Positions 13,888-26,535 of a stretch of 64,000 nucleotides of DNA are shown in pieces. Below the pieces are notes generated by a model. That model did not search any database, was not told where the DNA came from, and saw only the letters and a list, made by a program, of their open reading frames with translations. A program made the position numbers and the translations under genes. The stretch is taken from contig NC_022549.1 in the NCBI RefSeq assembly GCF_000967915.1, forward strand, positions 732,366 through 796,365, written 5' to 3'. Position 1 is the first letter of the stretch, and each line of letters opens with the position of its first letter. The stretch is from Paracholeplasma brassicae. GTDB lineage: Bacteria > Bacillota_I > Bacilli_A > Acholeplasmatales > UBA5453.

Positions 13888-14295
13888 ATGTTAAAATTAG
13901 ACACGAATTCACATTCAGTCTTTATGTTGTGGTATCACTTGATTTTAGTCACTAAATATAGACGTGAAGTCTTTACAGACGACATCTCTAATCGTGCTAA
14001 AGAGATTTTTGAAAATATAGCTACTAATTATCATATTACCTTAATTGAGTGGAACCACGATTCAGATCATGTTCACGTTTTATTTAGGAGTCACCCAAAA
14101 ACCGAACTATCCAAATTCATTAATGCCTATAAATCAGCTTCATCTCGATTAATCAAACAAGAGTTTGAATCTGTACGTAACAAGTTATGGCAGTCTTACT
14201 TTTGGAGTCAAAGTTTTTGTTTGTTAACTTCGGGTGGTGCACCGATCGATGTGATTAAACAGTATATCGAAAGTCAGGGTGAAAAAGATGAATAA
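13888..14295 (+). CDS. tnpA: IS200/IS605 transposase TnpA (Y1 HUH)
   Basis: Single-strand DNA transposase. The HUH metal motif is His61-Val-His63 in DHVHVLF, and the nucleophile Tyr126 lies in VIKQYIESQG. The 135 aa length is full size. It excises and inserts the element as single-stranded circles at a short target site. AAGAAGG precedes the ATG, and the 3' end overlaps tnpB by 8 bases. Confidence 0.96.
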   Translation: MLKLDTNSHSVFMLWYHLILVTKYRREVFTDDISNRAKEIFENIATNYHITLIEWNHDSDHVHVLFRSHPKTELSKFINAYKSASSRLIKQEFESVRNKLWQSYFWSQSFCLLTSGGAPIDVIKQYIESQGEKDE

Positions 14296-15388
14296 AGCCT
14301 TTAAGTTTAGAATCTATCCAACGGACACTCAAAAGACTTTGATTCATATGACCTTAGGCCATAATCGCTTTCTGTGGAATAAGATGTTAGATGACAAACA
14401 AAAACATTATGAGTTAACTAAGGGCATGTTATATAACCGACCTGCTCAGTATAAAGATACGTATCCCTTCTTAAAGGATATTGACTCGTTATCCTTAGCC
14501 AATACCCAACTCAATTTAGAAAAAGCCTTTAGAATGTTCTTTAGACGAAAACAAGACCTGCCTAAGTTTCACTCTAAGAAACAAGACTATGGTTATACGA
14601 CTAATTTCGTTAATAACAATATCGTACTAAAGAAGGGTTATATCAAACTACCTAAACTAGGTGATGTTAAAATCAAACAACACAGAACCATACCTAGTGA
14701 TATGTCTATAAAGAACGTTACGGTATCTAAAACAAGTACAGGTAAGTATTATGTTTCTATTCTATATGAATACCAAATAGAGATTAAGAAACAAGCAGTC
14801 AATCATTCAATAGGTCTAGATTTCTCAATGAATCATTTCTATATAGATGACCAAGGATTCAAGATGGATTATCCTAAAGCCATTCAAACAGACTTTACGA
14901 CATTAAGAATCCTACAAAGAAGTTTATCTAGAAGAATCAAAGGCTCTAGTAATTACCAAAAGAAAGTATTAGAGATTGCCTTATTACATGAACGAATTAG
15001 ACATAGAAGAGATGACTTCTTACATAAACTATCAAACGCGATAGCCAAGCGTTATGAATTAGTGAGTGTCGAGGGTTTGAATCTCATAGAGATGTCTAAA
15101 ACAAATCCATACTACGCCAAACAGATTTCTAGGTTTGGATGGACACGGTTTATCTCATTTTTGAAGTACAAGTTAGCAAAAGAAGGCAAGACACTTATGA
15201 CGATGGATAAATGGTATCCATCATCGAAGTTATGTAGTCACTGTGGCGAGATTCACACGGAACTTAAACTCTCTAACCGAGTGTTTGAGTGTCCAAGTTG
15301 TCGACTACACCTAGATCGAGATCACAACGCAGCGATCAATATCAACAGAGAAGGATTAAGACAATATAAGTTAGCATTTCAGTTATAA
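14288..15388 (+). CDS. tnpB: TnpB RNA-guided nuclease of IS200/IS605
   Basis: TnpB, the ancestor-type relative of Cas12, which in studied elements cuts DNA guided by the omega RNA made from the element's right end. It begins MNKAFKFRIYPT. RuvC residues are visible: Asp178 in IGLDFS, Glu262 in VSVEGLN, and Asp343/345 in LDRDHNAAIN. The zinc finger CSHCG...CPSC lies between the second and third RuvC motifs. 366 aa. The ATG at 14288 is preferred to the GTG at 14279. All catalytic residues are intact. Confidence 0.96.
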   Translation: MNKAFKFRIYPTDTQKTLIHMTLGHNRFLWNKMLDDKQKHYELTKGMLYNRPAQYKDTYPFLKDIDSLSLANTQLNLEKAFRMFFRRKQDLPKFHSKKQDYGYTTNFVNNNIVLKKGYIKLPKLGDVKIKQHRTIPSDMSIKNVTVSKTSTGKYYVSILYEYQIEIKKQAVNHSIGLDFSMNHFYIDDQGFKMDYPKAIQTDFTTLRILQRSLSRRIKGSSNYQKKVLEIALLHERIRHRRDDFLHKLSNAIAKRYELVSVEGLNLIEMSKTNPYYAKQISRFGWTRFISFLKYKLAKEGKTLMTMDKWYPSSKLCSHCGEIHTELKLSNRVFECPSCRLHLDRDHNAAININREGLRQYKLAFQL

Positions 15389-15751: not shown

Positions 15752-17938
15752 ATGAAAAAATACGCATCAATACTTGTCTTTTTGATTGTTTTATTGTTGT
15801 CTTCCTGTAAGACACCAATAAACGACGAGTATTTAGTGATTAACTACAATATTGAGACAAAAAAAATAATTAACGTCAATCATGATTATGAGGTTATCAT
15901 TACGGATCAAAACGTCTTAATTTACTTTGAAGTGAGACCTAAAAGTGGGGAAATAAAAACCTTTGAACGGTTGATTGTTAATAAAAAAGAAGTGAAGAAC
16001 TACGAATTCTTAGATAATAAAATAACGTTTTACCAAATTAGTGAGCATCCAACCAAACCGGATGAGCAAGTTAACGTCGATATCACTTTAAAAACCAATG
16101 GTGGTTACTGGACAAGTGAACAATTAACGGATCTTGAAGCTTCAAGCGCCCACACAATAACTAGTAAAAATGATTACACAGGTTCAACGTTTTCCTTACA
16201 TGATTCGACGACCACCGGATTAAGATGGTACTATAAATTGTTTTTAAATTATAACGAAACAGTCGATCTCTATGAGGTTGTCTACAAAGACTTAGCAACC
16301 GCCCAAGTGTCGATGTTAAATCTACCTGAATATGATTTCATTATTGGGGTTGCGGCTAACTATTTTGATGCAGAAACAAGAGAACAAATCATACATTATA
16401 CGAATCAAAGTGATCCGCTCTTTGCTTCCTTTAATCTTGACCCAGCAAGTTACACGGAAGGTGACTTGGTTATTTCTTTTTATGAGGATTCGGTGATTAG
16501 TGGAAATCTGACAAAAACGTATCTTGAGTCAGCGACCTTGCCAATCCCTTACAAAAAAGGATTTACATTTGTTGGTTGGTCTGATGGGGTCAACGTGTTT
16601 TCTGATTACAGCGTTCATCAAGCAAAGGACAAGGTGGTTGAAGTGACTTACGAGGCCATTTGGCAAGAAAAAACAGTCGAAGAATTAGAGACTTTCTTGG
16701 ATGAATTAATCCCATTAGTCATCGATGAAAACTTGTATTTTGAAACATCCTATAGTGCATTTGACCTTCAATTCGATAGTTCCACGGAATCGGTGATTTC
16801 AAACGAAGGTATTTATACAAGGCCGTATAAAGATCAAAATGTCCGCCTTTCTGTTCATGTCTATGAGGCAAATCAATTAATTAAAACAATCAATTACGAT
16901 GTGATTGCAAAAGGCTACAAATCGCTTGATTCAAGCTTTGCATCGAGTTACATCTACAGAAATTATTCACAAGTTGACGACTTATTTTTTGAGACCTTAG
17001 ATGTCATCAATACCGCGTTTATTACGGCAAATAGTCAAGGTAACTTAAGCGGTTCTAGTTACTTATCAAATGTCAAACAGTACATCATGCCAAGAGCCAA
17101 AGAAAACGGGAACTGGGTGATTATGTCGGTTGCACCTGAATCTAGCTGGTCTTCGATTGCTTCATCACAACAATCGATTGATACACTAGCTAATCAGATT
17201 GTTGAATTCATTAATGTGCATGGGTTTGACGGTGTGGATATCGATTGGGAAACACCGACGGACAGTGAGAAGACAAGGTTTACGGCACTGATGAAAACCG
17301 TCTATCAAAAAGTAAAATCGAACAATCCCAATCATTTAGTTACCACAGCAATTACCGGTGGTATGTGGCAACCACCACGATATGATTTGATTAACTCACA
17401 AATCTACCTAGATTACATTAACTTAATGACTTATGGAATGACTAGTTCAAATGGCCAATATCAAAACGCACTTTATAAAAGCACGACGTTTCATAATACC
17501 TCTTTAAAACTTGGTGCAAGTCTAAATACAGCAAGTATTGATGAAAGTGTGAAAATGCTAAAAAATAGCTATGGAGTTCCTTACAGTAAAATAGTAGTTG
17601 GTGTCGCGTTCTATGGGATTAAACAAACAAGGATCTATAATGAACAGACCAATACGTTTGATGCATTTAAGAATGCTGGGTCAGTTTATTATAATCACAT
17701 TGAAAACATCTATATGACCGATTCGAGTTACGAGCTAGTCTATGATACTGGTGCGGGCGTACCTTATATTTACAAGAAGGATGGAACCGAATTTATTTCT
17801 TTTGATAACCCACAAAGTATTCTAGAAAAAGGAAACTATATCCTTAAAAATAAGTTAGGCGGGATGATGTTTTGGGAGTATGGAACAGATCCAACGAACC
17901 GGTTATTAGAAGCGGTAAAACAGGGCATGGGAAAATAA
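15752..17938 (+). CDS. Glycoside hydrolase family 18 lipoprotein (chitinase/endo-N-acetylglucosaminidase-like)
   Basis: Surface lipoprotein of 728 aa. A signal peptide ends in lipobox LSSC. Residues about 30-240 are an unassigned beta-rich region. Residues about 240-305 resemble the InlB-type repeat (FVGWSDG). The GH18 barrel covers about 390-728 with the DxxDxDxE motif as DGVDIDWE (Asp493, Asp496, Asp498, catalytic Glu500). YINLMTYGM and GGMMFWEYG follow. Substrate could be chitin, peptidoglycan-type glycan or host N-glycan. No transporter for amino sugars is adjacent. Confidence 0.9.
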   Translation: MKKYASILVFLIVLLLSSCKTPINDEYLVINYNIETKKIINVNHDYEVIITDQNVLIYFEVRPKSGEIKTFERLIVNKKEVKNYEFLDNKITFYQISEHPTKPDEQVNVDITLKTNGGYWTSEQLTDLEASSAHTITSKNDYTGSTFSLHDSTTTGLRWYYKLFLNYNETVDLYEVVYKDLATAQVSMLNLPEYDFIIGVAANYFDAETREQIIHYTNQSDPLFASFNLDPASYTEGDLVISFYEDSVISGNLTKTYLESATLPIPYKKGFTFVGWSDGVNVFSDYSVHQAKDKVVEVTYEAIWQEKTVEELETFLDELIPLVIDENLYFETSYSAFDLQFDSSTESVISNEGIYTRPYKDQNVRLSVHVYEANQLIKTINYDVIAKGYKSLDSSFASSYIYRNYSQVDDLFFETLDVINTAFITANSQGNLSGSSYLSNVKQYIMPRAKENGNWVIMSVAPESSWSSIASSQQSIDTLANQIVEFINVHGFDGVDIDWETPTDSEKTRFTALMKTVYQKVKSNNPNHLVTTAITGGMWQPPRYDLINSQIYLDYINLMTYGMTSSNGQYQNALYKSTTFHNTSLKLGASLNTASIDESVKMLKNSYGVPYSKIVVGVAFYGIKQTRIYNEQTNTFDAFKNAGSVYYNHIENIYMTDSSYELVYDTGAGVPYIYKKDGTEFISFDNPQSILEKGNYILKNKLGGMMFWEYGTDPTNRLLEAVKQGMGK

Positions 17939-17948
17939 ATAGAACAAG

Positions 17949-17983
17949 AAAAACAAGGACACGATTCGATGTCCTTGTTTTTA
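17949..17983 (+). terminator. Terminator after the GH18 gene
   Basis: ACAAGGACA / TGTCCTTGT stem (17953-17961 with 17970-17978) flanked by A and T runs. Confidence 0.9.
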
Positions 17984-17995
17984 TAAAACATTTTT

Positions 17996-18009
17996 GTTGA
18001 CTGCTCAAC
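17996..18009. promoter_or_regulatory. MarR-type operator 1
   Basis: Palindrome GTTGA-CTGC-TCAAC covering the -35 box of the ABC exporter promoter. It matches operator 2 (18033-18046) at 13 of 14 positions in inverted orientation. Confidence 0.75.
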
Positions 18010-18025
18010 AAAGAAGTGATAAAAT
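17997..18025 (+). promoter_or_regulatory. Promoter of the ABC exporter/MarR operon
   Basis: TTGACT at 17997-18002 and TAAAAT at 18020-18025 with a 17-base spacer. The -35 lies inside operator 1, and operator 2 begins 8 bases after the -10, so a bound repressor would block initiation from both sides. Confidence 0.8.
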
Positions 18026-18032
18026 GCTAACA

Positions 18033-18046
18033 GTTGAGTAGTCAAC
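18033..18046. promoter_or_regulatory. MarR-type operator 2
   Basis: Palindrome GTTGA-GTAG-TCAAC just downstream of the -10 box, same arms as operator 1, centre to centre 37 bases apart. Confidence 0.75.
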
Positions 18047-18063
18047 AAGATTGGAGATTCATT

Positions 18064-19836
18064 ATGTTAAAACTAGCAAAATACTTTAAGTGGTGGTATT
18101 ACCCACTCATTATCTTAATTGTGGCCTTAATCTACATTCAAATTGAATTTGACTTAAGATTAATCGATAAAGTCGCAGATATTATTCGAAGTATCGGTAT
18201 AGCCGATACGACAGGCACGCCACAAACCGATGAAATTCTTTCGATAGGACTCAGTATGATTTTAATCACACTTGTTAGCATATCGACAACCATTTTAGCG
18301 AGTTTTTTAGCCTCACGCATCGGCGCAAACCTCTCAAAGAATTTGCGTAAACAATTGTATTTAAAGGTGGATGGATTCTCATTAGAAGAAATCAATCAAT
18401 TTTCAACGTCCTCACTGATTACAAGAACTTCAAATGACATTCAGCAAGTACAAATGGTGATGATTATTTTACTTAGAATGGCCATCACAGCACCTATGAT
18501 GGCAATCAGAGGTGTGTTAAAGATTTCAGGGCTAAGTAATGAGCTTTCGATCATAACCGCCATTGGGGTTATCTTTATTTTAACGGTGATCAGTGTTATC
18601 TTCGTTTTTGTTACACCAAAATTTAAGGTGATGCAAGAACAAAATGATGAGCTTAATTTAGTCACAAGAGAAAACCTAGTCGGGCTAAGAGTTGTTCGTG
18701 CACACAACGCTCAAGAGATTGAGAAAGATAAATTTGAAAACATCAATGAACGCATCACGAGACTTAACTTGTTTGTTAATCGTGGGATGCAGTTATTAAT
18801 GCCAAACATGGCTTTAGCAATGAATGGGGTCAGTTTAGCCATTGTTTGGCTAGCTGCGGTATTAATTAATCAAGGCAACTTAGGACAAAACGGTTACGAT
18901 GGCATCGCGATTCAAACACAATTTACGACGTATTCGATGCAAATTCTAATTAGTTTTATGATGCTTACCATGCTCTTTATTATGATTCCAAGAGGCCAAG
19001 TATCAGCAAAGCGTATTAGAGAAGTCCTTAACACCAAAACAAAGATTAAAGACCCAGTTAATCCAAAGACAATAAATAAAGAAGAAGCGATTCATATTAA
19101 GTTTGAAGATGTGTGTTTTAAATACCCAAATGCGGAAGAATGTGTCATTGAAAATGTCAATTTTGAAGCAAATATGGGACAAACGGTGGCTTTCATTGGA
19201 TCAACCGGTAGTGGAAAATCAACCATCATTAATCTAATTCCTAGATTTTATGATGTGACTCACGGTTCGATTAAAATTAATGACATCGATATCAGAGACC
19301 TGAAACAAACGGATTTGATCGATTTGGTTGGTTATGTGCCACAAAAAGGGATGTTATTTCAAGGTGACATCCAATCGAATTTAAGATTAGGAAATGAACA
19401 TGCCACGGACGAAGAATTATTAAGTGCGCTTGAAATATCGCAATCTAAGGAGTTTGTTATGGCTTTAGAAGATAATCTTAACGCACCCGTATCCCAAGGT
19501 GGTAAAAACTTTTCTGGTGGGCAAAGACAGCGCTTATGTATTGCAAGAACGATTGTCAAACAACCTAAAATTTACATATTTGATGATTCGTTTAGTGCGC
19601 TTGATTATCAAACCGATCGTAAACTAAGAAGAGAACTGGAAAAAACGACGAAGAACGCGATTAAATTGATTGTGGCACAGCGCATTAGCACCATACTTCA
19701 CGCGGATCAAATTGTTGTTTTAGAAAATGGCAAAATTGTCGGTAAGGGCACACATAAAGAGCTATTAAAGACAAATCATGTGTATCAGGAAATGGCATAT
19801 TCTCAATTGTCTGAGGAGGAACTAGCTCATGAATAA
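18064..19836 (+). CDS. ABC multidrug exporter half-transporter, degenerate-site subunit
   Basis: One half of a heterodimeric exporter of the BmrC/LmrC type: six membrane helices (about 15-325), then an ATPase domain. Walker A GSTGSGKST starts at 379 and the signature reads FSGGQRQR. Walker B IYIFDDSFSALD has Asp508 where the catalytic Glu should be. That change is the hallmark of the subunit with the weak ATP site in such pairs. GGAGA before ATG 18064 sets the start; the frame open from 18034 is spurious. It overlaps the partner gene by 8 bases. Confidence 0.92.
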   Translation: MLKLAKYFKWWYYPLIILIVALIYIQIEFDLRLIDKVADIIRSIGIADTTGTPQTDEILSIGLSMILITLVSISTTILASFLASRIGANLSKNLRKQLYLKVDGFSLEEINQFSTSSLITRTSNDIQQVQMVMIILLRMAITAPMMAIRGVLKISGLSNELSIITAIGVIFILTVISVIFVFVTPKFKVMQEQNDELNLVTRENLVGLRVVRAHNAQEIEKDKFENINERITRLNLFVNRGMQLLMPNMALAMNGVSLAIVWLAAVLINQGNLGQNGYDGIAIQTQFTTYSMQILISFMMLTMLFIMIPRGQVSAKRIREVLNTKTKIKDPVNPKTINKEEAIHIKFEDVCFKYPNAEECVIENVNFEANMGQTVAFIGSTGSGKSTIINLIPRFYDVTHGSIKINDIDIRDLKQTDLIDLVGYVPQKGMLFQGDIQSNLRLGNEHATDEELLSALEISQSKEFVMALEDNLNAPVSQGGKNFSGGQRQRLCIARTIVKQPKIYIFDDSFSALDYQTDRKLRRELEKTTKNAIKLIVAQRISTILHADQIVVLENGKIVGKGTHKELLKTNHVYQEMAYSQLSEEELAHE

Positions 19837-21667
19837 ACGAGTAAATAACACACAATCACGCGGACCAGGGCATGGCCCAGGACACGGTATGGGTGCCGTT
19901 CAAAAACCTAAAAATATGAAAAAGTCATTAATGAAATTGCTCAACAGCATGAAAGGTTACCAACTTTGGTTACTAATTGCGTTTTTATTTGCTGGAATGT
20001 CTACCGTATTTAATATTTTAGGACCGACCTTGTTAGGTGATATTACGAACGTTGTGCATTTATCGGTTAAAGAAGGTACACAAATCGATCTTGATAAAAT
20101 TAGACAAATAGCGATACTCTTAATCGTCTTATATCTACTAAGTATGATTTTTAATATTATTCAATCGTTTATCTTAACGCGAGTAACTCAAAGCACAGTT
20201 AAGCAATATCGAACACAAATATCAAGAAAAATTAATCGATTGCCACTGGCGTATTTTGACAACAAAAGCTATGGTGAGGTTTTATCAATTGTAACAAATG
20301 ATATTGATACCATCGGTCAAGCGTTAAACCAATCGGTCTCACAATTGATTACATCGACTACCTCAATTATTGGTATTGTCGTTATCATGATTACCATCAG
20401 TATTCAATTATCGATTGTATCATTTGTCGCAATTCCACTTTCGTTTGTTGCGATTATGATTGTGATGAAGTTTTCACAAAAATACTTTAGATCGCAACAA
20501 AAGAGTTTAGGGAAAATCAATGGTCACATCGAAGAAATCTATTCTGCACATAACGTTGTAAAAGTATTCAATGCATCAAATAAAAACTTAGAAAAATTTG
20601 AAACTTACAACAATGAAATGGAAAAAAGTGCCTACATGAGCCAATTTCTTTCTGGCTTAATGATGCCAATTACGACATTTATTTCAAATTTATCGTTCCT
20701 TGCTGTTGGTGTTTTTGGTGGCATATTGACCGTGAGAGGCGTTATCTTAATCGGCGATATTCAGTCAATGATTCAATACAATCGCAGGGTCTCACAGCCA
20801 CTCGGGCAGATTGCTCAATCATTTAACCAAGTTCAAAGTGCAATCGCTGCATCTGAACGTGTGTTTGAATTCTTAGAACAAGCTGAAATGAAAGATGAAT
20901 CTAATCTTCATCAATCAGTCAATTTACTTGAAGGAAACGTTACCTTTAAACACGTTAAATTCGGTTATCAATCAGATAAAATAATCATTAAAGACTTTAA
21001 TTTAGAAGCAACAAAAGGTCAAAAAATCGCGATTGTTGGACCAACAGGTGCAGGTAAAACAACCTTAGTGAACTTGATTATGAAATTCTATGAAATCAAT
21101 GAGGGGGATATTTTGTTTGATGGCGTTAGTATTCATGAATTAAGCCGTGAGAAGATTGCCGATTTATTTGCGATGGTCTTACAAGACGCTTGGTTATTCA
21201 AAGGTACTATTTATGACAACCTAACGTATGGATCTAAAAACGTTACTCAAGAAGAAGTCATTAAGGCTGCTCAAATGGCGAATATTCATCACTTTATTGA
21301 ATCACTTCCAAACGGTTATCAGATGATTCTAGATGAAGAATCGGGTATTTCACAAGGACAAAAGCAGTTGTTTACAATTGCTAGAGCCATGGTAAGAAAT
21401 GCACCGATGTTGATTCTTGATGAAGCAACCTCAAGTGTCGACACAAGAACAGAAGTATTAATTCAAGAAGCGATGGATAAACTAATGCATGGCAGAACGA
21501 CATTTGTTATTGCCCACCGTCTCTCAACAATTAAGAATGCAGACATCATCCTTGTGATGAATGAAGGCGACATCATCGAATCGGGTAATCACGAAACGCT
21601 ATTAAAACAAAATGGTTTTTATGCCAACCTCTACAACAGTCAGTTTGAAAAGGTTGAACAAGTATGA
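19829..21667 (+). CDS. ABC multidrug exporter half-transporter, catalytic subunit
   Basis: Partner of the preceding gene. The N-terminal 20 residues are rich in Gly, His and Pro (GPGHGPGHGMG), perhaps a metal-binding or flexible tail. Six helices follow, then the ATPase domain with Walker A GPTGAGKT from 404, signature ISQGQKQ and Walker B LILDEATSS with the catalytic Glu532 present. The altered signature (SQGQ rather than SGGQ) would face the degenerate site of the partner, as in known heterodimers. 612 aa. It overlaps the MarR gene by ATGA. Confidence 0.92.
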   Translation: MNKRVNNTQSRGPGHGPGHGMGAVQKPKNMKKSLMKLLNSMKGYQLWLLIAFLFAGMSTVFNILGPTLLGDITNVVHLSVKEGTQIDLDKIRQIAILLIVLYLLSMIFNIIQSFILTRVTQSTVKQYRTQISRKINRLPLAYFDNKSYGEVLSIVTNDIDTIGQALNQSVSQLITSTTSIIGIVVIMITISIQLSIVSFVAIPLSFVAIMIVMKFSQKYFRSQQKSLGKINGHIEEIYSAHNVVKVFNASNKNLEKFETYNNEMEKSAYMSQFLSGLMMPITTFISNLSFLAVGVFGGILTVRGVILIGDIQSMIQYNRRVSQPLGQIAQSFNQVQSAIAASERVFEFLEQAEMKDESNLHQSVNLLEGNVTFKHVKFGYQSDKIIIKDFNLEATKGQKIAIVGPTGAGKTTLVNLIMKFYEINEGDILFDGVSIHELSREKIADLFAMVLQDAWLFKGTIYDNLTYGSKNVTQEEVIKAAQMANIHHFIESLPNGYQMILDEESGISQGQKQLFTIARAMVRNAPMLILDEATSSVDTRTEVLIQEAMDKLMHGRTTFVIAHRLSTIKNADIILVMNEGDIIESGNHETLLKQNGFYANLYNSQFEKVEQV

Positions 21668-22110
21668 GTGAAAAGCACATTGACTACGACTATTTAAGTC
21701 TAACTCAAGAACTTCACAGTTTAACAAAAATGATTCATCAATCGTTAGATGATCAAATTAAAGATTTTAATATAAGCCGACTTCATGCACCATACATTAA
21801 ACTGTTGTCTGTTTTTAAGACAGGATTAACCCAAAAAGAACTAACCAGTAAATTAGGTGTCGATAAAGCAAATACGTCAAGAGCGATCAATGATTTAGTC
21901 AAAAAGAATTACGTGAAAAAAGATTTTCAAGAAAACTTGGAAATCAATTATAAACTGGTGTTAACCGAAAAAGGCCTTGCACTATCAAACACCTTGATGA
22001 AGACCGTTGAAGACAAATACGTGGAATTATTTAGTGTCTTAGAGCTAGAAGAACTAGAAACGTTCAGACGAATTGTGAAGAAAATAACGTCTAGTGCAAT
22101 CATTAAATAA
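21664..22110 (+). CDS. MarR-family repressor of the ABC exporter operon
   Basis: Winged-helix regulator of 148 aa. KTGLTQKELTSKLGVDKANTSRAINDLVKKNYV is the HTH and recognition helix, followed by the wing (ENLEINYKLVLTEKG) and a C-terminal dimer helix. It is the last gene of the exporter operon with a four-base overlap. The two GTTGA-N4-TCAAC palindromes at the operon promoter are the probable binding sites, so it likely represses its own operon and is released by a drug or metabolite ligand. Confidence 0.92.
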   Translation: MSEKHIDYDYLSLTQELHSLTKMIHQSLDDQIKDFNISRLHAPYIKLLSVFKTGLTQKELTSKLGVDKANTSRAINDLVKKNYVKKDFQENLEINYKLVLTEKGLALSNTLMKTVEDKYVELFSVLELEELETFRRIVKKITSSAIIK

Positions 22111-22137
22111 TTTTACTAGGTAAGAAAATACTTTTTG

Positions 22138-22146
22138 TGATATAAT
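22138..22146 (+). promoter_or_regulatory. Extended -10 promoter
   Basis: TGATATAAT at 22138-22146, 27 bases before the ATG at 22173. Confidence 0.6.
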
Positions 22147-22172
22147 ATATTTGGGGAAAGAAGGTATTAAGT

Positions 22173-22373
22173 ATGGCTTGGAGCAATGAATCTCGCATAA
22201 TTGGCGAAAAAGTACAAGTATTGAATGAAAAAGAAATGGGCGTAATTACAAGAATTGATTACGAACGTAAGTTAATCTATGTTTTATTTAAACGTTTAAG
22301 AGAAGAAGCTTACCCTTACCCAGAAGCATTCGAACAAAATTATTTAACTGTAAAAATGAGCAGTAACCGATAG
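22173..22373 (+). CDS. Small hypothetical protein, 66 aa
   Basis: A monocistronic gene with its own promoter, AAGAAGG ribosome site and strong terminator, so it is very likely expressed. The sequence is beta-rich (IIGEKVQVLNEKEMGVITRIDYERKLIYVLFKRL...) and has the look of a small SH3/KOW-like barrel: a turn GEKVQVL followed by paired strands. No function can be assigned. Confidence 0.75.
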   Translation: MAWSNESRIIGEKVQVLNEKEMGVITRIDYERKLIYVLFKRLREEAYPYPEAFEQNYLTVKMSSNR

Positions 22374-22392
22374 TTAATAAACTTATGAATGA

Positions 22393-22420
22393 AATCAGGC
22401 AATCAATGCCTGATTTTTTA
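22393..22420 (+). terminator. Terminator after the 66-aa gene
   Basis: AATCAGGCA / TGCCTGATT stem (22393-22401 with 22407-22415) followed by a T run. Confidence 0.9.
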
Positions 22421-22485
22421 TCGTTTCTAAAAAATAATAATAATTCACATAAAATACCTATTTTTGAAAACGCTAACATTTAATC

Positions 22486-22514
22486 TTGTATTTCGATTTG
22501 AAGATTGATATAAT
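22486..22514 (+). promoter_or_regulatory. Promoter of the VOC protein gene
   Basis: TTGTAT at 22486-22491, 17-base spacer, TATAAT at 22509-22514 with an extended TGA in front. Confidence 0.75.
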
Positions 22515-25704: not shown

Positions 25705-26535
25705 TTAAATAACTGATTCAATTTTTAAGGCTTGATTCCGAAATTCCATCGGAGTTAAGCCTTTTAGTTTTTCTTGGTACCTTTGTTTATTATAAAACTG
25801 GATGTATTGATCAATCGCTACTTTGAGTTGATTGATGTCGTGAAACTGGGTTAAATAGTACATTTCTGATTTAAGTGTACCCCAAAAACTCTCCATCGGT
25901 CCATTATCAATACACCTACCAACTCTAGACATACTGACTGTCATGCTTCTAGAAGTGAGCTTCTTTTGAAACACTTTATTCGTATATTGATACCCGCGGT
26001 CACTGTGTACCATCGGTTTGGCTTCCGGATTAAGTTGGAATGCTTTCTCGAAGGTTTCATTTACCAGTTGGTTATTATTCGATATACCCATTTTGTAACT
26101 GATAATACTGGTATCACACAGATCGATGATGGCACTTAAGTATAACTTAGTATTCGATCCAATCACCTTGAACTCGGTAACGTCTGTTAACCATTTCTCA
26201 TTGGGATTATTAGCCTCAAATTGTCTGTTTAAGACATTCTCTGCTGTGATCTCTGGTCTTACTTTAATATACCCCTTACGCACTCTACGGATAACCGACG
26301 ATACACCTAATTTCTTCATCAATCGTCTGATGCGTTTTACATTATAGTTCGTTTGATTCCGCTTATTAATCCATAAAGTCATCCGTCTATAGCCTAAGAT
26401 ACCTTTAAACTCATCATGATATTCAAGAATCAATTGAGATAACTCATGATTAATCTTTTCTTCATTTGTTTCTTCATGTTTTAACCACTTATAATAGCTG
26501 CTACGAACAATCAAAAGGATTTCACATAACACCAA
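25705..26535 (-). CDS. IS3-family transposase OrfB (DDE integrase domain)
   Basis: Catalytic part of the IS3 transposase. It has an HTH_21-like region (LGYRRMTLWINKR), then the rve integrase core with Asp in TDVTEF, Asp in HSDRGYQYT and Glu in NGPMESFWGTLKSE. The reading frame is open far upstream of the GTG at 26535: KEGYFSKIRQEAKYKTIKGLHEAK leads back without stop to an A7 run at 26634-26640. The functional product is therefore an OrfAB fusion by -1 frameshifting. Confidence 0.93.
   Translation of the reverse strand: MVLCEILLIVRSSYYKWLKHEETNEEKINHELSQLILEYHDEFKGILGYRRMTLWINKRNQTNYNVKRIRRLMKKLGVSSVIRRVRKGYIKVRPEITAENVLNRQFEANNPNEKWLTDVTEFKVIGSNTKLYLSAIIDLCDTSIISYKMGISNNNQLVNETFEKAFQLNPEAKPMVHSDRGYQYTNKVFQKKLTSRSMTVSMSRVGRCIDNGPMESFWGTLKSEMYYLTQFHDINQLKVAIDQYIQFYNKQRYQEKLKGLTPMEFRNQALKIESVI

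Follow-up and report, generated by a model that had tools for sequence, protein, structure and literature searches.

The operon considered here lies in a 64-kb stretch of DNA, which was analysed as a whole and is referred to below as the window. It has the order ABC1-ABC2-MarR, with consecutive genes all overlapping, and it is preceded by a promoter around which the palindrome GTTGA-N4-TCAAC is found twice. The features of the locus are these:

17949..17982, no strand assigned (scored on the - strand): hairpin containing T-runs, in the interval from the GH18 gene to the promoter
17996..18009, no strand assigned: putative operator 1 (site 1), GTTGACTGCTCAAC, overlapping the -35; the single site at this place is kept in four orthologous operons of family f4
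17997..18002, + strand: -35 hexamer TTGACT, inside site 1
18020..18025, + strand: -10 hexamer TAAAAT, between the two sites
18033..18046, no strand assigned: putative operator 2 (site 2), GTTGAGTAGTCAAC, at about +2 to +15
18053..18056, + strand: ribosome-binding site GGAG, 7 nt ahead of the ABC1 start codon (ATG at 18064), with which the start codons of relatives align
18064..19836, + strand: ABC1, TM287-like ABC exporter half-transporter with a degenerate Walker B (IYIFDD)
19829..21667, + strand: ABC2, TM288-like partner half-transporter with a canonical Walker B (LILDE) and an altered signature (SQGQ), overlapping ABC1
21664..22110, + strand: MarR-family regulator, last gene of the operon, overlapping ABC2 (ATGA), with recognition helix DKANTSR

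An earlier note on this DNA held that the controlled operon ends with a MarR gene, and this is what is found at 21664-22110, after two ABC half-exporter genes. The product exceeds the curated cut-offs of PF12802 (36.1 bits, cut-off 27) and PF01047 (28.0, cut-off 24.6); among the NCBIfam equivalogs none attains its own cut-off (TcaR scores 39.7 against a required 170), so the protein is left without assignment to any named member of the family. ABC1 and ABC2 both carry PF00664 and PF00005 and are thus two adjacent half-transporters, each a membrane domain plus an NBD. After Walker B, ABC1 has DD where DE is usual, and ABC2 has SQGQ where SGGQ is usual; both features are kept in all four genus genomes compared, as DD in ABC1 and SQGQ or SSGQ in ABC2. 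One degenerate composite ATP site is a criterion for heterodimers of the TM287/288 type, with which the predicted ABC1-ABC2 pair is consistent. ABC1 aligns over 579 residues with 3qf4_A, which we take to be TM287, and ABC2 over 586 residues with 3qf4_B; these chains form a named heterodimer among the best structure matches, although chains of 8wcw and 9kwi outscore them against ABC1 and ABC2.

The two copies of GTTGA-N4-TCAAC are present at 17996-18046 as the earlier note had reported, without a single mismatch, and the window has no other exact copy. Their reported placement, one over the -35 and the other right after the -10, was likewise borne out: TTGACT lies inside site 1, and site 2 begins 7 nt past TAAAAT. 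The two hexamers are separated by a 17-nt spacer, TG precedes the -10, and with a score of 10/12 the promoter is tied for the best promoter-like site in 17800-22500. Transcription would start near 18032, so that site 2, given its distance from the -10, should cover about +2 to +15. That the sites are near-perfect inverted copies of each other is accurate as description, because the reverse complement of site 2 (GTTGACTACTCAAC) differs from site 1 at 1 of 14 positions, but the relation carries little information, since both sites are palindromic in themselves and the N4 centres vary freely from one relative to another. The hairpin at 17949..17982 is likely a terminator or insulator that separates the operon from the GH18 gene.

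Chance does not readily produce such an arrangement. In 120 simulated 64-kb sequences (first-order Markov, with the dinucleotide make-up of the window), exact sites arose at 0.09 per 64 kb and operator pairs not at all; for pairs with a gap of 20-26 bp, the expectation is about 4e-5 per 1.88-Mb genome. Single exact sites are another matter: the whole 1.88-Mb genome holds eight, against about 3.4 expected. The earlier note had proposed looking across the genome for further sites, and this yielded no wider regulon, as the six exact sites elsewhere are near chance, five of them lying inside long ORFs. The one intergenic site among them (L070:1016; G000:C1:419615), 42 nt before a 314-aa ORF, is a weak candidate for a second target. 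Matches with at most two mismatches in the window (57 against 43 expected) are mostly background, and we rejected them as further operators.

Conservation was assessed in 61 genomes. The pair at a gap of 20-26 bp occurs once in each of the seven genomes of the genus (g1) that were searched, at the orthologous promoter, and in 12 of the 61 overall, as compared with none of the 61 for the reversed pattern. The order pair-ABC1-ABC2-MarR is found in six of the seven, the contig of G002 ending after ABC2 and before MarR. Identity to the window proteins in the four genus genomes compared is 62-65% for ABC1, 61-63% for ABC2 and 32-35% for MarR; among relatives the 14-bp frames are constant, and the N4 centres and the gap vary. 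A homology search of genome contigs with the window MarR protein returned no relative, as the protein has diverged too far for such a search.

Four genomes of family f4, picked by MarR homology and thus independently of the motif, all have ABC1-ABC2-MarR in the same order. In each, the fetched stretch contains exactly one GTTGA-N4-TCAAC, which lies over the -35 of ABC1 and reads GTTGACAAATCAAC in all four. The core therefore seems to be the site over the -35, with the downstream one as an addition; operator 1 is likely the core operator and operator 2, absent from the f4 orthologues, likely accessory. Three other loci in this comparison (L044, L045 and L046) have no exact site, and in a fourth (L047) an exact site precedes, by 23 nt, an ORF that has a MarR-like match. 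The natural one-site (f4) and two-site (g1) forms of one operon would permit a direct test of what the second site contributes.

The pair also follows MarR genes into other gene orders and phyla. In the genus g15 (family f3), where five of the nine genomes among the 61 bear a pair, a MarR ORF follows the pair after about 12 nt in all five, in a different gene order. A sweep of 395 genomes of the class found pairs at a gap of 20-26 bp in 15, against one for a 5-bp half-site spacer (N5), none for gaps of 27-57 bp, and none for the reversed pattern. Outside g1 and g15 this sweep gave six pairs: MarR is adjacent in two (G064 and G347) and about 0.8 kb distant in one (G081), and the fetched stretches of G210, G383 and G395 contain no MarR. 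A motif-only scan of named genomes recovered at least 80 loci, including Paenibacillus, Lentilactobacillus, Mycobacterium and Amycolatopsis (80 among the matches listed, in 120 stretches; more exist). Among these 80, a MarR-profile ORF lies within 150 nt at 57, as compared with 9.4% of positions drawn at random from those loci, a count that is not fully independent because the profile took the first loci as its seed and was then iterated on the full set, and that favors detection of this subfamily because the profile was partly built on motif loci; at the remaining 23 of the 80 listed, no MarR-profile ORF lies within that distance. Some loci carry more than two sites. Three consecutive sites, 36-40 bp apart, stand beside a MarR ORF in Paenibacillus (L096:7222, L124:2136 and L166:5641), and at least three in tight tandem, possibly a simple repeat, occur at L086:4955-5004 (G210) and L158:4625, with no adjacent MarR ORF.

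The geometry of the pairs is itself informative. A -10-like hexamer lies 16-19 nt from the TTGA within a site in 84 of 102 pairs, as compared with 19% when the spacer letters are shuffled, and the centres of the two sites are 36-38 bp apart in 71 of 102, in a search that allowed 34-40. The simplest reading is that an operator half-site doubles as the -35 and that promoter geometry fixes the distance to the second site. Cooperative binding on one helical face (37 bp being about 3.5 turns) is not claimed, because promoter geometry explains the fixed spacing equally well.

The association extends to the protein. All 71 MarR proteins linked to a pair have K or R at position 68 and R, H or K at position 73, as against 4 and 7, respectively, of 17 other MarRs. 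The recognition-helix pattern [DE][KR][AGS]xxx[RHK] is present in 60 of the 71 and in one of the 17 (L029); it is also present in 29 of 32 non-redundant linked MarRs and three of the four f4 orthologues. (The control set was reduced from 25 to 17: four proteins were dropped as duplicates of linked proteins, and the four f4 orthologues were kept separate.) At position 94, which is Arg or Tyr in most linked MarRs, the window MarR has Ile. With this link between recognition helix and DNA box, targets could be assigned for many MarR proteins that have not been studied.

These observations bear on whether the operon's own MarR is the main regulator. The sites might be real operators that serve chiefly another MarR or wHTH protein, with the operon's MarR playing a minor part; the genome has nine other PF01047-type hits, and regulation in trans is common. 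The helix motif, however, is present in the operon's MarR and in none of the six other MarR-type proteins of the genome that could be aligned (for the other three of the nine, no profile match below 260 aa could be used), and the operon's MarR stays with the sites in the same operon in two families, which makes another main repressor distinctly unlikely.

We thus consider it very probable, from the sites, the promoter geometry, the operon order, their conservation and the association of motif with regulator, all visible in the DNA, that the palindromes are operators through which MarR controls a heterodimeric ABC exporter and its own synthesis, by repression with ligand release. A MarR dimer on site 1, the core site whose left half doubles as the -35, would cover that hexamer, and a second dimer on site 2, tightening repression, would cover the transcript start, so that RNA polymerase could not use the promoter. 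From this promoter a single mRNA would encode the ABC1-ABC2 exporter and MarR, and because it shares the message, MarR would limit its own level. A toxic, probably hydrophobic small molecule would bind MarR, the dimers would leave, and exporter and MarR would be made; once the molecule had been pumped out, repression would return. The autoregulatory circuit that the earlier note proposed, in which the sites are operators of the operon's own MarR, thus gains backing from conservation in 7/7 genus genomes, from the four f4 operons with one -35 site, from pairs that accompany MarR genes where gene order or phylum differs, and from a helix motif common to MexR. The operators of this uncharacterised exporter are thus strongly predicted.

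One could also envision MarR as an activator, with two bound dimers bending or positioning the promoter. Some MarR proteins do activate, RmaH of Lactococcus being an example according to the available part of PMC13277315, but a site on the -35 and another after the -10 have the geometry of occlusion, and the promoter is already near consensus (10/12), so we regard activation as highly improbable. That the palindromes act mainly as RNA hairpins, or merely decorate a strong promoter by chance, is scarcely credible: site 2 would fall at the 5' end of the transcript, and TTGAC, being also the -35 consensus, makes one half-site partly expected, but site 1 lies outside the transcript of this promoter, a genome is so rarely expected to hold an exact pair, and the gap specificity and MarR linkage would be left unexplained.

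Repression by the operon's MarR, as proposed here, has published counterparts. The available parts of PMC9892617 and PMC10609311, which relay the footprint of Evans et al. (2001), describe the operators of MexR in Pseudomonas aeruginosa, and the former gives the PII site as GTTGA-CCTTA-TCAAC, with PI and PII overlapping promoters. As far as these accounts go, MexR-mexAB-oprM shares with the window the GTTGA/TCAAC half-site, two adjacent operators over the promoter region, and a MarR-family autorepressor that controls an exporter. The differences in the same accounts are a half-site spacer of 5 bp rather than 4 bp and the involvement of both the mexR and the mexAB promoter regions, whereas the window MarR is the last gene of its operon. 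The ten solved-structure sequences that the window MarR matched include MexR, although the two are weakly similar (24.8 bits); their recognition helices align, DKALITRKI of MexR standing opposite DKANTSRAI. We rejected an equation of Arg73, the anchoring residue of MexR, with R73 of the window MarR, as counting positions in the alignment places MexR Arg73 at Asn76. The mexAB-oprM pump is an RND rather than an ABC transporter. The window site would thus work like a MexR site, with the same GTTGA pair, but is not claimed as one, as the 5-bp spacer is absent.

PefR-PefCD of Streptococcus agalactiae is a second counterpart. In the portion of the published description available, a MarR gene and two ABC genes form one operon with two upstream copies of the operator, induced by heme and protoporphyrin, so that the repressor is released by the ligand that is exported, as we propose for the window MarR; the same portion places the regulator gene first, records a second target operon, and gives an operator (TAAAATAGTTCTCACGATAACTA) that by eye is unrelated to GTTGA-N4-TCAAC. 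SAV4189 of Streptomyces avermitilis, again in the part of the source available, acts through several promoter palindromes to repress both its own gene and an efflux gene transcribed together with it; it differs in its operator (TTGCCYKHRSCAA), in having three sites, and in its MarR gene standing first. The system therefore belongs to an already known type of circuit, that of MexR-mexAB and PefR-PefCD. A search of the open-access literature found no paper on a GTTGA-N4-TCAAC box with a MarR-ABC-ABC operon, which is weak evidence of absence.

What is less ordinary is that the two-site cassette recurs widely and predicts the type of regulator. We lean, with some reserve, towards viewing GTTGA-N4-TCAAC pairs with 36-38 bp between centres as a portable promoter-operator cassette, occurring in Bacillota, Actinomycetota and other groups, whose readers are a large subgroup of MarR proteins with a recognition helix of the form DK[AS]xx[ST][RH]. 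In this view the half-site is the -35, the repressor and RNA polymerase are rivals for one set of bases, and the promoter fixes the spacing. If so, sequence alone would suffice to tell which regulator serves many an exporter that has none assigned.

Upstream of the operon, 15752-17938 encodes a 728-aa protein with a GH18 domain and a lipoprotein-like N-terminus, and in five of the six other genus genomes a 135-aa ORF is found in its position. Just 5' of the GH18 gene, adjoining ORFs of 135 and 369 aa (13888-15388) resemble IS200/IS605 TnpA-TnpB by eye, and a 276-aa ORF at 25705-26535 on the - strand similarly resembles an IS3-type transposase. Directly 3' of MarR lies a 66-aa ORF (22173-22373) with TATAAT upstream of it, as judged by eye; because a terminator-like hairpin on the + strand (22391-22417) appears only after this ORF, read-through from the operon is possible.
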